Notes under the pieces: generated by a model
Seen by the model: the letters and a program-made list of their open reading frames with translations, nothing else
The model's database searches: none
Told to the model about the DNA's origin: nothing
Shown: positions 24,937 through 29,736 of the stretch, piece after piece
How the letters are laid out: the number at the start of each line of letters is the position of its first letter
How positions within the stretch are numbered: position 1 is the first letter of the stretch
Made by a program: the position numbers and the translations under genes
NCBI GenBank assembly: GCA_903924465.1
Contig: CAIYBN010000090.1
Span: 1-64,000, forward strand
Reading direction: 5' to 3'
DNA length: 64,000 nt
DNA from: an uncultured Myxococcales bacterium
GTDB lineage: Bacteria > Myxococcota_A > UBA9042

Positions 24937-24964
24937 TTGACAACCACCCGGGAACGGGTAACCT
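24937..24964 (+). promoter_or_regulatory. Promoter of the rrf2 regulator
   Basis: TTGACA (24937-24942), 16-bp spacer, TAACCT (24959-24964). The -35 is perfect and the -10 is weak. The predicted start falls inside the operator at 24965-24991, which fits autorepression. Confidence 0.5.
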
Positions 24965-24991
24965 AAAATCCTACCGTAATGGTAGGAATTA
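24965..24991 (+). promoter_or_regulatory. Rrf2-type operator, copy 1 (rrf2 promoter)
   Basis: A perfect 7-bp inverted repeat TCCTACC (24969-24975) / GGTAGGA (24981-24987) with a 5-bp spacer. The 27-bp element starting AAAAT matches the element before the porin gene at 20 of 27 positions. It overlaps the predicted transcription start. Confidence 0.7.
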
Positions 24992-25006
24992 GGAACAAGG
25001 ATCTCC

Positions 25007-25513
25007 ATGCTGCCCATGAAGTCGCGCTACGCACTGAAGGCACTGGTATTTTTGGCCCGCCACCAGGCCGACGGGCCCATCCCGGTCGCTGGAATCGCGG
25101 CGGCCGAAGCGATTCCGGTCAAGTTCCTGGAAGCGATTCTTCTGGAATTGCGCAACTCCGGCATCCTGACGAGTCGACGTGGCCCGACCGGTGGCTACCA
25201 GCTCCGCGTCGCGCCGCAAACCGTCCATCTCGGCGACGTCATTCGCAATCTGTCCGGACCGATGGCGCCGTTGCCCTGCCTGTCCAAGTCCGCCTATCAC
25301 CGCTGCGGCGAATGCGTGGACGAGACGACCTGCGCAGTTCGGCTACTGATGGCGGACGTGCACGCGGCGACCTTGCGGATTGTCGATGGCACGACGCTCG
25401 CGGCTTTGGTCGCGCGTGTGGACGCGGCGGCGTCCGGCGAGGCAGAAGGCCAGTCCCAGCGTTGTCGACCCCAGGAAGGTCCGCCGTCCGCGAAGCTCGA
25501 CTTTATCGACTGA
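25007..25513 (+). CDS. Rrf2-family transcriptional regulator (Cys-ligand type)
   Basis: 168 residues; AAGGA lies 7 bases before the ATG. The N-terminus MKSRYALKALVFLARH and SRRGPTGGYQL are the winged-helix hallmarks of Rrf2 proteins (IscR, NsrR, CymR, RirA). Cys91, Cys100, Cys103 and Cys109 lie where IscR/NsrR bind an Fe-S cluster, suggesting cluster-dependent sensing. The adjacent porin and sulfate transporter genes suggest control of sulfur acquisition, analogous to CymR, but the ligand is not known. The C-terminal ~30 residues are hydrophilic and look unstructured. Confidence 0.9.
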   Translation: MLPMKSRYALKALVFLARHQADGPIPVAGIAAAEAIPVKFLEAILLELRNSGILTSRRGPTGGYQLRVAPQTVHLGDVIRNLSGPMAPLPCLSKSAYHRCGECVDETTCAVRLLMADVHAATLRIVDGTTLAALVARVDAAASGEAEGQSQRCRPQEGPPSAKLDFID

Positions 25514-25568
25514 CGTAAAGTGAATCGACATGGGCGCAGCAAGAGGCTCGATTTTGCGATTTTTGCCC

Positions 25569-25595
25569 AAAATACGACTATTACGGTAGGAATAA
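25569..25595 (+). promoter_or_regulatory. Rrf2-type operator, copy 2 (porin leader)
   Basis: Begins AAAATACGAC and ends GGTAGGAATAA. It is identical to the rrf2-proximal element at 20 of 27 positions, with an intact right half and a degenerate left half. The AGGA inside it is also the only ribosome-site candidate for the porin ATG at 25601, so a bound protein or an overlapping RNA element would cover translation initiation signals. Confidence 0.65.
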
Positions 25596-25600
25596 TTCAC

Positions 25601-27004
25601 ATGACACGCAACCTCATGATCTTGCTGATAGCATTGGTATGTCCCGGCTTGGCTCACGCTCAGGTCGCTGTGCTCAATCCGCGCCAGGTGACCGAGACGA
25701 CGGCTGCCAGCCTGGAGCAAAAAGTCGCTGCGCTAGACGAAAAAGTGCGCCGGTTGGAGCGGCGAGCGGAGGTGGCCGAAGAAGTCGCGAACGCCCGCAA
25801 TGCGATTGCCGGCACGAGCGGCGACGAACTGGTCTTGAAGTCGAAGAGTGGTGAGTTGACCTTGCAATTCAATGGGATATTGCAGGTTGATGGCCGCCTG
25901 TTCCTCAACGACGACGCGCGCGCGCTGGCGGACACCTTCACGGCGCGGACGATCCGGCCGATTTTTTCCGGCTCCTGGGGCAAGTTGCTGAAATGGCAGT
26001 TCACACCAGACTTTGGCGGCGGCGTGGCGACGATTCAGGACGCTTGGGTCGATCTGGCCTTGGGCGACCACGTCACCGTCCGCGTTGGCAAAATGACCGT
26101 TCCATTTGGCCTTGAGCGCTGGCAGGGCACCGCGGCCCTGCGCTTTGTCGAACGCGCCTATCCGACGCAGCTCGCGCCGAACCGCGACATCGGCATTCAG
26201 GTGTTCGGCGACCTGTTGGACAAACGCGTCGGCTGGTCGTTGGGCGCGTTTGACGGCGGCGTCGACAACAGCCTGACCGACACGGACAACAATGATTCCA
26301 AGGAGATCGCCGCGCGGATCTTTGCCCAGCCTTTTGCCAAGCTGGAGAACGATTGGCTGAATTCGCTGCTGATTGGCGGCGCGGTGACTTGGGGCGACCA
26401 GAACGGCACGGACGCTTCGCCGCAGACGCCGAGTTGGAAAACGCCAGGCCAGAACACGTTCTACAGCTTTCGCAGCGCCGAGAAAGGCAAGGACGCAACT
26501 GGCGCGGCCATCACGTTGCCGAATCCGGTGGCCAACGGCGCGCGCCTGCGCTGGACCGCGCACGCGTGGTGGACCGGTGGTCCCTTGGCGTTTTTGGGCG
26601 AATACACCGCCGTCACCGAACCCGTCAGCCGGGCCGGCACCAGCGGCGACTGGAAAGCAACGGCTTGGCAAAGCGCGTTGTCATACGTCATCGGTGGCAA
26701 GCCGCATTTCTCGGGCACCAAAGTCGAAACACCCTTTCAACTGGGCGCGGCAGGCTGGGGCGCTTTTGAACTCGCCGGCCGGGTGTCAGGGATCGCCGCC
26801 GATGCCGCGACCTCGACGATTTGGGCCGACCCCGCGAAATCGGCACGGCTGGCCACCAGCTTCACCGGCGGCGCCCGCTGGCATTTGTCCGAACATTATC
26901 GGCTCTTTCTCGACTACGAGCACACCATCTTCTCCGGCGGCGCGACAAGCGGCAATCGTGCCACGGAGCAAGCGGTGATCGGCCGGGTTCAACTCGCCTA
27001 CTGA
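25601..27004 (+). CDS. OprO/OprP-like outer-membrane porin
   Basis: 467 residues. A signal peptide ends at AHA. Next is a heptad coiled coil (LEQKVAALDEKVRRLERR), then the phosphate-selective-porin-type barrel: LQFNGILQVDGR, RTIRPIFSGSWGK, DAWVDLALGDHVTVRVGKMTVPFGLER, RFVERAY. It ends VQLAY with the usual terminal aromatic. The family forms anion-selective trimeric channels. Its place directly before cysTWA and the Rrf2 operator suggests it admits sulfate or another sulfur anion. It occupies the slot where a binding-protein gene would be expected. Confidence 0.88.
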   Translation: MTRNLMILLIALVCPGLAHAQVAVLNPRQVTETTAASLEQKVAALDEKVRRLERRAEVAEEVANARNAIAGTSGDELVLKSKSGELTLQFNGILQVDGRLFLNDDARALADTFTARTIRPIFSGSWGKLLKWQFTPDFGGGVATIQDAWVDLALGDHVTVRVGKMTVPFGLERWQGTAALRFVERAYPTQLAPNRDIGIQVFGDLLDKRVGWSLGAFDGGVDNSLTDTDNNDSKEIAARIFAQPFAKLENDWLNSLLIGGAVTWGDQNGTDASPQTPSWKTPGQNTFYSFRSAEKGKDATGAAITLPNPVANGARLRWTAHAWWTGGPLAFLGEYTAVTEPVSRAGTSGDWKATAWQSALSYVIGGKPHFSGTKVETPFQLGAAGWGAFELAGRVSGIAADAATSTIWADPAKSARLATSFTGGARWHLSEHYRLFLDYEHTIFSGGATSGNRATEQAVIGRVQLAY

Positions 27005-27123
27005 CTCACCGCGGGCGCGTCCGGAAACGGAAGCCGACGGCATGGCAGTAAATTCTACTTTGCCGATTGACATACCGGAGCTGAAACGAAAACTGTGCAG
27101 CCACGCATCGTCTGGAGCCACGC

Positions 27124-27960
27124 ATGAGCCTCTCGCGACCGAAACGCGCGCCTGTAGCGCTTCCTGGCCTTGGGCTGTCGTTGGGCATTACCGTGACCTG
27201 GCTCAGCTTCATCGCGCTGATCCCGCTGATCGCACTGGTGATTCGGGCCGGAAGCCTGGGGTGGCACGGCTGGCTGGACGCCATTTCCGGTGAGCGCGTG
27301 TGGTTGTCGTTGCGACTGAGCTTCGGCGCGTCACTCATGGCGGCGACTTTGGACACGCTGGCTGGCCTGCTGATCGCCTGGGTGCTCTGTCGCTACAAGC
27401 TGCCAGGTCAGGCGTTCTGGGATGTGCTGGTCGATCTGCCGTTTGCCCTGCCGACTGCGGTCGCCGGCATCGCGCTGACCGCGCTTTGGGTGCCGGGTGG
27501 CTTTCTCGGGCGGATGGTCGCGCCGTTGGGCTGGAAGATTGCGTTCGCGGAGCCAGGCATCGTCGTCGCGCTGGCGTTTATCGGCCTGCCGTTCGTGGTG
27601 CGCACGGTCCAGCCGGTGCTGCAGAGCGCGGAAAAGGAACTGGAAGAGGCCGCGGAGTCTCTGGGCGCAAGCCCGTCGCAGGTGATCTGGCGCGTCGTTC
27701 TGCCGACGTTGCGCCCGGCGCTGCTGACCGGCTTTGCCCTGGCTTTTGCCCGGGCGGTCGGCGAGTACGGTTCTGTGATCTTCATCTGCGGCAACATTCC
27801 GATGAAGACCGAGATCACGCCACTGCTCATCGTGTCGCGCTTGGAGCAGTACGACTACGCCGGCGCGACGGCGCTCGCGACGATCATGCTGGCGCTTTCC
27901 GCGGTGATTTTGGCGCTCCTGCAAGTGCTGCAGAGCGGTCGACGGCTGGCGTTACGCTGA
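27124..27960 (+). CDS. cysT: Sulfate/thiosulfate ABC transporter permease CysT
   Basis: 278 residues, six predicted membrane helices. The EAA loop reads EEAAESLGASPSQVIWRVVLP. The CysT-specific stretch EYGSVIFICGNIPMKTEITP and LEQYDYAGATALA distinguishes it from molybdate (ModB) and phosphate permeases. It pairs with CysW in the inner membrane. A perfect TTGACA at 27067-27072 lies upstream but without a good -10, so it may have its own promoter or be read from the porin gene 119 bp upstream. Confidence 0.92.
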   Translation: MSLSRPKRAPVALPGLGLSLGITVTWLSFIALIPLIALVIRAGSLGWHGWLDAISGERVWLSLRLSFGASLMAATLDTLAGLLIAWVLCRYKLPGQAFWDVLVDLPFALPTAVAGIALTALWVPGGFLGRMVAPLGWKIAFAEPGIVVALAFIGLPFVVRTVQPVLQSAEKELEEAAESLGASPSQVIWRVVLPTLRPALLTGFALAFARAVGEYGSVIFICGNIPMKTEITPLLIVSRLEQYDYAGATALATIMLALSAVILALLQVLQSGRRLALR

Positions 27961-27963
27961 CGG

Positions 27964-28761
27964 GTGGTGTCGATGATTCGAATTCTCCTCACGTTTCTTG
28001 CGATGGCCTGGCTCACGCTGATGGTACTGGCGCCGGTCGTCATCGTGCTGGTGGAAGCGCTCAGCGCGGGCGTCGGCGCGTGGTGGCAAGCGGTCAGCGA
28101 TGATGAAACGCGCACGTCCGTCGCGCTGTCGCTCAAAATCGCCGCGATCGTCGTGCCGTGCAATGCGGTTTTTGGCGTGGCGGCCGCCTGGTCACTCGCG
28201 CGGTTTCGCTTTCCCGGCCGTTCGCTCCTGCTCGCGCTGCTGGACTTGCCGCTGTCGGTTTCGCCCGTTGTGTCCGGCCTGGTCTTTGTGTTGCTGTTTG
28301 GCGCGCAAGGTTGGTTCGGCGCCTGGTTGCAGGCACACGACATCCAGATCATTTTCGCCGTGCCCGGCATGGTGCTGGCCACCGCGTTCGTCACGCTGCC
28401 GATGATTGCTCGCGAGTTGCTACCGCTGCTGGAATCCCAAGGCGACGACGCGGAACTGGCCGCGCGGACGTTGGGCGCCTCTGGCTGGCAGGTGTTCTGG
28501 CTGGTGGCCTTCCCGCGCATGCGCGGCGCGCTGGCCTACGGCGTGCTCCTGTGCACGGCGCGCGCGCTGGGCGAGTTCGGCGCGGTGTCGGTCGTATCCG
28601 GCCATATCCGCGGGCAAACGGATACGCTGCCGCTGCACGTGGAAATCCTGCACAACGAGTATCACTTCCAGGCCGCATTCGCTGCCGCGTCGCTGCTGTT
28701 GCTGGTCGGCGTGGCGACGCTGCTGCTTCGGCGCTTGCATACGACCGAAGCGGGCCGCTAG
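27964..28761 (+). CDS. cysW: Sulfate/thiosulfate ABC transporter permease CysW
   Basis: 265 residues from a GTG three bases after the cysT stop; an ATG at 27973 is the alternative start. The EAA loop is ELAARTLGASGWQVFWLVAFP. The C-terminal motif ALGEFGAVSVVSGHIRGQTDTLPL followed by HNEYHFQAAFA is diagnostic of CysW. It forms the membrane channel with CysT and is energised by CysA. Tight spacing indicates one transcript. Confidence 0.92.
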   Translation: MVSMIRILLTFLAMAWLTLMVLAPVVIVLVEALSAGVGAWWQAVSDDETRTSVALSLKIAAIVVPCNAVFGVAAAWSLARFRFPGRSLLLALLDLPLSVSPVVSGLVFVLLFGAQGWFGAWLQAHDIQIIFAVPGMVLATAFVTLPMIARELLPLLESQGDDAELAARTLGASGWQVFWLVAFPRMRGALAYGVLLCTARALGEFGAVSVVSGHIRGQTDTLPLHVEILHNEYHFQAAFAAASLLLLVGVATLLLRRLHTTEAGR

Positions 28762-28773
28762 TTGGAGTTGACG

Positions 28774-29736
28774 ATGTCGATTGAAATACTCGGAATCAGC
28801 AAGAACTTTGGCAGCTTCAGGGCGCTGGACGACGTCACGCTGACCATTGCCAAGGGCGAACTGCTGGCGCTGCTGGGACCGTCGGGCTCAGGCAAGACCT
28901 CGTTGCTGCGCGTGCTGGCGGGGCTGGAACTGCCGGACGTGGGCAGCGTGCAGGAGGATGGCCACGACCTGACGTCGCTGGGGGCGCGTGACCGCAATGT
29001 CGGTCTGGTCTTTCAGCACTTCGCGCTGTTTCCGCACCTGGATGTGTTTGAAAACATCGCGTTCTCGCTGCGCGTGCGCAAGCGCCCGGCCGGGGAAGTG
29101 CATGAACGTGTGGAGGAACTGCTGCATCTGGTGCAGTTGGAGGGGCTGGCGCACCGCCGGCCCGCGGAGCTGTCGGGTGGGCAGCGACAGCGCGTGGCCT
29201 TGGCGCGTGCGTTGGCGGCGCGCCCGCGGGTGCTGCTGCTGGACGAGCCGTTTTCCGCGCTGGACGCAAAAGTGCGCCACGAACTGCGCGGCTGGCTGCG
29301 ACGGCTGCATGAAGAACTGGGCACAACGACGGTGTTTGTCACGCACGATCAGGACGAGGCTTTTGAGCTGGCCGACCGCGTCGCCGTCTTTCACCGCGGC
29401 CGCATCGAGCAGATCGGCACGCCGGATCAAATCTACGACGAGCCCAAGAGTCCATTCGTGCTGGATTTTCTCGGGCAAGTGCAGTGGCTGGAAGGCCTCG
29501 GTTTGACGACGCTCGGCGTGCGCCACCGCGACGTGACGCTGCATGCCACCGGCGATATGGGCTGGCCCGCGCGCATCGTGCGCATCCACCGCACGGGCCC
29601 GCGCGTGCGGGTGGACCTGGAACTGGCCACCGGTCAGCCGCTGATCGCCGCGTTGGACCCGCCTGCCGCGCAGCATCTGACGGTCGGCCAGGAGGTGCGC
29701 GCGGTGGCGGAACGGAAGTATGCGTTTGGGCCGTAG
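28774..29736 (+). CDS. cysA: Sulfate/thiosulfate ABC transporter ATPase CysA
   Basis: 320 residues from the ATG at 28774 (GGAG 8 bases upstream). Walker [14 protein letters not shown]-loop [10 protein letters not shown], signature [15 protein letters not shown], Walker [13 protein letters not shown], and H-loop VTHDQDEA are all intact. A C-terminal TOBE-like domain (~230-320) follows. No sbp or cysP gene for the periplasmic binding subunit is present on either side, so a binding protein must be encoded elsewhere or the importer uses a non-standard partner. Confidence 0.93.

Follow-up and report, generated by a model that had tools for sequence, protein, structure and literature searches.

In enteric bacteria CysB-type LysR proteins control the assimilation of sulfate; in Firmicutes this falls to CymR, whose complex with CysK responds to O-acetylserine. 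The type 1 operator of the Rrf2-family regulator IscR has the form YYGACT-N5-AGTCRR. The sites that I read upstream of E. coli iscR are CCGACT-AAATC-AGTCAA and TTGACC-AATTT-ACTCGG. Bacillus CymR represses cysteine synthesis, sulfur-source uptake and cysK (PMC3828012, PMC3519770), and CymR binds no Fe-S cluster (PMC9338935). In Myxococcus xanthus, RisR recognises GAC-N7-GTC (PMC9973013). In the literature searched I found no Rrf2 sulfate regulator outside Firmicutes, and no sulfate-assimilation operator or regulator for Myxococcota, Binatota, Acidobacteria, PVC bacteria or many Alphaproteobacteria; most subscription journals and RegPrecise lay outside that search, so the novelty of the regulon described here is stated with caution.

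A sulfate-uptake locus and its Rrf2 protein

The locus lies in a 64,000-nucleotide stretch of DNA, analysed whole and called the window, from a 5.8-Mb metagenome assembly (G000) of an uncultured Myxococcales bacterium. It is a sulfate-uptake locus with the gene order rrf2, porin, cysT, cysW, cysA and then ftsY (Table 1), an order kept in all four myxobacterial genomes of the same genus (G001-G004), with an sbp gene inserted ahead of cysT in G002. A Porin_O_P-like porin also stands between rrf2 and sbp or cysT in several phyla (L099, L102, L105 and L107, besides the window), and by this position it is a candidate sulfate-specific outer-membrane channel.

Table 1. Genes, predicted promoter and operator copies of the locus (window positions).
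Feature	Position	Strand	Evidence
Predicted rrf2 promoter, TTGACA-N16-TAACCT	24937..24964	+	Congeners: TTGACA/G-N17-YARNCT, equal distance to operator
Operator copy 1 (rrf2), core CCTACC-GTAAT-GGTAGG at 24970-24986	24964..24992	+	Model 18.0 bits, genome E 0.02
Rrf2-family regulator, 168 aa	25007..25513	+	Pfam PF02082, 3e-32
Operator copy 2 (porin), core ACGACT-ATTAC-GGTAGG at 25574-25590	25568..25596	+	Model 15.9 bits
Porin_O_P outer-membrane porin	25601..27004	+	PF07396, 5e-21
Operator copy 3 (cysT), core TCTACT-TTGCC-GATTGA at 27054-27070	27048..27076	+	Model 15.9 bits
CysT, sulfate ABC permease	27124..27960	+	TIGR02139, 358 bits (cut-off 246)
CysW, sulfate ABC permease	27964..28761	+	TIGR02140, 349 bits (cut-off 329)
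CysA, sulfate ABC ATPase	28774..29736	+	TIGR00968, 358 bits (cut-off 343)

The regulator belongs to the Rrf2 family by both general profiles (PF02082, 112 bits against a cut-off of 30; NCBIfam rrf2_super, 98 bits against 73), but it falls well below the equivalog cut-offs for IscR (TIGR02010, 65.4 bits against 207.6), NsrR (NF008240, 31.9 against 182) and CymR (NF047409, 72.5 against 195), although the last is its best specific NCBIfam match; it also fails the RirA equivalog. Its loop carries four cysteines, C91-x8-C100-x2-C103-x5-C109, and the corresponding subfamily pattern, PC-x8-C-x2-C-x5-C, has all four conserved in almost all homologues. In Rrf2 proteins that bind an Fe-S cluster, the ligands are cysteines of this loop.

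Compared by protein and targets, the window protein resembles CymR in its Rrf2 fold and in its association with sulfur-source uptake and cysK, the latter through the sites alone (at cysTWA, sbp and cysK). It departs from the cluster-free CymR in its four clustered cysteines, where CymR has a loop with no cysteine cluster, and in a promoter architecture found in diderm bacteria and including a porin. With E. coli IscR and its type 1 sites the likeness extends to family, the cysteine-loop region, autoregulation, operator length and the 6-N5-6 spacing of the half-sites. However, the window subfamily has TAC where IscR has GAC, IP(R/V/T)KFLEA where the recognition-helix segment of IscR reads ISLSYLEQ, four cysteines instead of three, and sulfur-uptake targets in place of isc and suf; the window rrf2 itself is linked to the porin and cysTWA rather than to isc or suf. 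The initial annotation had stated that the motif matches no known IscR, NsrR or CymR site, which has to be amended for IscR: the spacing is that of its sites, with TAC replacing GAC in the half-site. RisR is likewise a myxobacterial Rrf2 regulator whose palindrome has equal spacing, but it controls isc and suf, has three cysteines and recognises G/C half-sites. The best reading is that the window protein, which belongs to none of CymR, IscR and NsrR, would act as a four-cysteine autorepressor of sulfur uptake, with a role like that of CymR.

The operator in the window and in the genus

Two elements had been proposed as a shared operator of rrf2 and the porin, and both are present (24965-24991 and 25569-25595), agreeing at 20 of 27 positions as counted on the sequence; the first does contain the perfect palindrome ascribed to it, TCCTACC-GTAAT-GGTAGGA, at 24969-24987. 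A scan with the suggested pattern, AAAAT-N11-GGTAGGAAT, matched the window without mismatch at two places only, starting at 24965 and 25569, and found the same two in the whole 5.8-Mb genome, where no further position reached even one mismatch. Thus the many unrelated copies that would have counted against the proposal do not exist as near-identical sequences elsewhere in the genome, and the loss from close relatives with the same gene order that would also have counted against it is not seen either, the motif being retained in 4/4. At looser thresholds chance matches swamp the motif (40 matches with up to three mismatches against 47 in a reversed control), so the decision had to rest on comparison between genomes.

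Side-by-side comparison of the upstream regions of the window genome and its four congeners yielded the conserved core CCTAYY-N5-RRTAGG. The suggested pattern, though exact in both copies, is therefore not the invariant part: the left flank is AT-rich and AAAAT itself varies. The comparison also added a third copy, before cysT, to the two first reported. The operator occurs at rrf2 in 5/5 genus genomes (in the congeners CCTATC-GCGAT-GATAGG, CCTACC-GCGTT-GGTAGG, CCTACT-ACGCC-GGTAGG and CCTACC-GGAAA-GGTGGG), at the porin in 5/5 (CATACT-ATAGC-GATAGG, CCTACT-TACAC-GATAGG, CCTAGT-TTTAT-GATAGG and CATACT-AATGC-GATAGG), and ahead of cysT or, where inserted, sbp in 5/5, copy 3 being conserved in G001, G003 and G004 and the G002 site ahead of sbp reading CCTACT-TTTGC-GATGTG. 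In eight genomes of the same family outside the genus (L065-L072; Rrf2 66-72% identical) I found no convincing operator upstream of rrf2, and in these genera rrf2 is unlinked from cysTWA, which suggests that autoregulation there was lost or never gained. Contig CAMDBH010000003.1 (L091, G005) falls in the window's family, its Rrf2 gene being 72% identical to that of the window; its title, Klebsiella pneumoniae, looks wrong.

The sites are placed in a consistent manner. At rrf2, the operator follows within 4-7 nt of the predicted -10 element in the window genome and the four congeners, and since the promoter-like element and the adjoining operator are repeated in these relatives, the earlier placement of copy 1 on the predicted transcription start is reasonable; a generic promoter scan reported no rrf2 promoter site and is uninformative. 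At the porin, all five genomes have exactly 10 nt between the end of GGTAGG or GATAGG and the ATG, so that the right half of the operator also serves as the ribosome site, and copy 2 does cover the only evident one, as had been claimed. The cysT and cysK sites abut or overlap a TTGACA-like element, and at cysK, by a count on the sequence, the TTGACA of a TTGACA-N17-TATT promoter begins inside the right operator half, taken in the direction of cysK. The positions at rrf2, the porin and cysK fit repression. The arrangement of a TTGACA-type promoter with the operator recurs in Omnitrophica, PVC bacteria and Thermoanaerobaculia.

Sites beyond the locus and beyond the genus

A model built from 18 genus sites was run over the five genus genomes, scoring 150 candidates per genome. 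The window sites came back with E 0.02-0.10 per genome, and the model also found, outside its training set, a site at the promoter of cysK in G001 (identified by TIGR01139, 447 bits). The scan was not exhaustive, since it missed sbp sites later found by hand: G000, G004 and G001 have sbp away from the locus, and in all three CATACT-N5-GATAGA lies upstream of it at 21-24 bits, which was checked as a prediction. In another genus (G010), rrf2 and cysTWA are unlinked and the operator TCTACT-ATTCC-GATAGG still precedes sbp-cysTWA. Two further genomes with cysTWA (G013 and G020) showed no strong site in the stretch read, the G020 contig starting inside sbp.

The operator also heads operons for a YeeE/YedE protein, an SrpI encapsulin and a cysteine desulfurase (NF041166) in G001 and G003, by the model, and in G004, by a position matrix. 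The encapsulins are of the SrpI-like family 2A, and the operator-like sites suggest that the storage of sulfur answers to this control as well. Such sites, in front of the operon and behind it, lie at L210:6304-8342 and 9877 (G004), L211:11600 and 7803 (G001), L215:2179 and L213:2246 (both G003) and L209:10290 (G000), the G000 operon having no YeeE genes at that place. A genus-model match was found at a TauE/SafE gene in G002. A search upstream of cysH/cysD-type genes gave no operator within about 1.5 kb of them, and sulfate reduction may therefore lie outside the regulon in this genus.

Several other matches deserve mention in their own right. An orthologous site of 28-29 bits (L208:7926 on G000:C39 and L216:9183 on G004:C79) precedes a large secreted lipoprotein-like gene belonging to a TonB/TonB-dependent-receptor cluster, possibly an uptake system for some sulfur compound. 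The site CATACT-ATGCA-GATAGA (L208:13512, G000:C39; 24 bits) lies between the genes for a sigma-54 activator and a TauD-type dioxygenase, and the top score among the further regions read, 30.6 bits, belongs to an intergenic site near livKHM-like ABC genes (L214:6315, G003:C782). A site in G003:C396 (L192) and two matches inside a coding region of G000:C144 (L223:3077 and 3413) were taken as chance.

For the comparison across phyla, genome contigs were searched with an Rrf2 alignment, which gave 52 loci; the search patterns included E[GA]IP[RTV]KFLE, which biases the matches towards that helix. The rrf2 homologues stand beside sbp-cysTWA, often with the porin, in Binataceae, Acidobacteria, Thermoanaerobaculia, one planctomycete, one PVC bacterium and Oleisolibacter; beside cysK in Omnitrophica; beside sulfite reductase and siroheme synthase (CysG) genes in Bacteroidota; and beside TauE in Jiella, Pseudoroseicyclus and Defluviimonas. 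With a model trained on the genus alone and the best match taken per whole locus, 25 of the 48 loci outside the genus had that match no more than 160 bp from rrf2, as had 17 of the 20 sulfur-linked ones, the loci being partly dependent (several Binataceae, two Jiella); 100 column-permuted models, which keep the AT content, gave on average 8.7 and 5.2 such loci and never more than 17 and 11, respectively. Distant operators include CCTACT-TATCC-GATAGG (Thermoanaerobaculia), CCTATT-AAATC-GATAGG (Omnitrophica) and CATACT-AATTT-GATAGG (Jiella). Upstream of rrf2 in three Binataceae loci (L099, L102 and L105), a diverged palindrome like TATCGAC-N5-GTCGATA replaces the TAC motif and may be a step on the way to the GAC half-site of IscR.

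A predicted switch for sulfur supply

What does this element do? Very probably it serves the Rrf2 protein encoded beside it as operator, through which rrf2, the porin, cysTWA, sbp and cysK would be controlled by sulfur supply. The sites, their conservation and placement and the sulfur identity of their neighbours are established directly, and from them I infer that the window Rrf2 binds the sites; the earlier proposal of a shared, autoregulatory Rrf2 operator is, at this comparative level, well supported by conservation in relatives and by the uniqueness of the motif in the genome. An Rrf2 dimer would bind CCTAYY-N5-RRTAGG, covering the transcription start at rrf2 (hence autoregulation) and the promoter end and ribosome site at the porin, and overlapping or adjoining the promoter at cysTWA, sbp and cysK. 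When sulfur suffices, the protein would repress these genes; when sulfur is short, it would release them, and the porin, sulfate-binding protein, sulfate pump and cysteine synthase would be made, together with, in relatives, the operon for the YeeE-type transporter, encapsulin and cysteine desulfurase. Sensing would presumably run through the four-cysteine loop, by an Fe-S cluster, zinc or thiols.

Operator position suggests repression rather than activation. That the protein instead activates, or does both, recruiting polymerase at promoters when sulfur is short, is unlikely but deserves the most weight among the alternatives: the cysT and cysK sites touch TTGACA-like elements, and IscR, annotated as a dual regulator, can also activate, but a site after the -10 element at rrf2 and one over the ribosome site at the porin are blocking positions. 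It is still less probable that the sites belong to another Rrf2 paralogue, an IscR- or RisR-like Fe-S regulator, with the locus answering to iron-sulfur status and not to sulfur supply. Paralogues do exist in G000, and the spacing equals that of two E. coli iscR promoter sites and of the M. xanthus RisR motif (PMC9973013); against this, the half-site is TAC and not GAC, the G000 paralogues are only 25-37% identical with different recognition helices, and the motif accompanies the window subfamily beside sulfur genes over many phyla. An action of the repeat as RNA, whether as a hairpin hiding the ribosome site or as a riboswitch, could be read from the palindrome of copy 1 and the position of copy 2, but it is very improbable, given that many sites are imperfect palindromes, that the cysK and cysT sites overlap predicted promoter elements well before the start codon, and that Rfam gave no match, which led me to reject a riboswitch. 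Despite the many matches at loose thresholds, a resemblance by chance or through the AT-rich composition of promoters is hardly credible in view of the conserved spacing, the permuted-model control and the sites found outside the model, and is in practice refuted by the sbp, cysK and cross-phylum tests.

If the element is indeed the operator of the adjacent Rrf2, a wider generalization can be offered tentatively, as one that may well claim too much: an undescribed four-cysteine, pan-phylum Rrf2 subfamily with a TAC-N7-RTA operator of its own could be the master switch of sulfur supply in many diderms, sensing cysteine or Fe-S status through its loop and, in this genus, also coupling the storage of sulfur in family 2A encapsulins to the uptake of sulfate and thiosulfate. 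With an operator defined and held-out tests made, the predicted regulon is directly testable in cultivable Jiella, Oleisolibacter and Azospirillum, and the finding would tie to the regulator both the encapsulins that store sulfur and a candidate channel for sulfate in the outer membrane.
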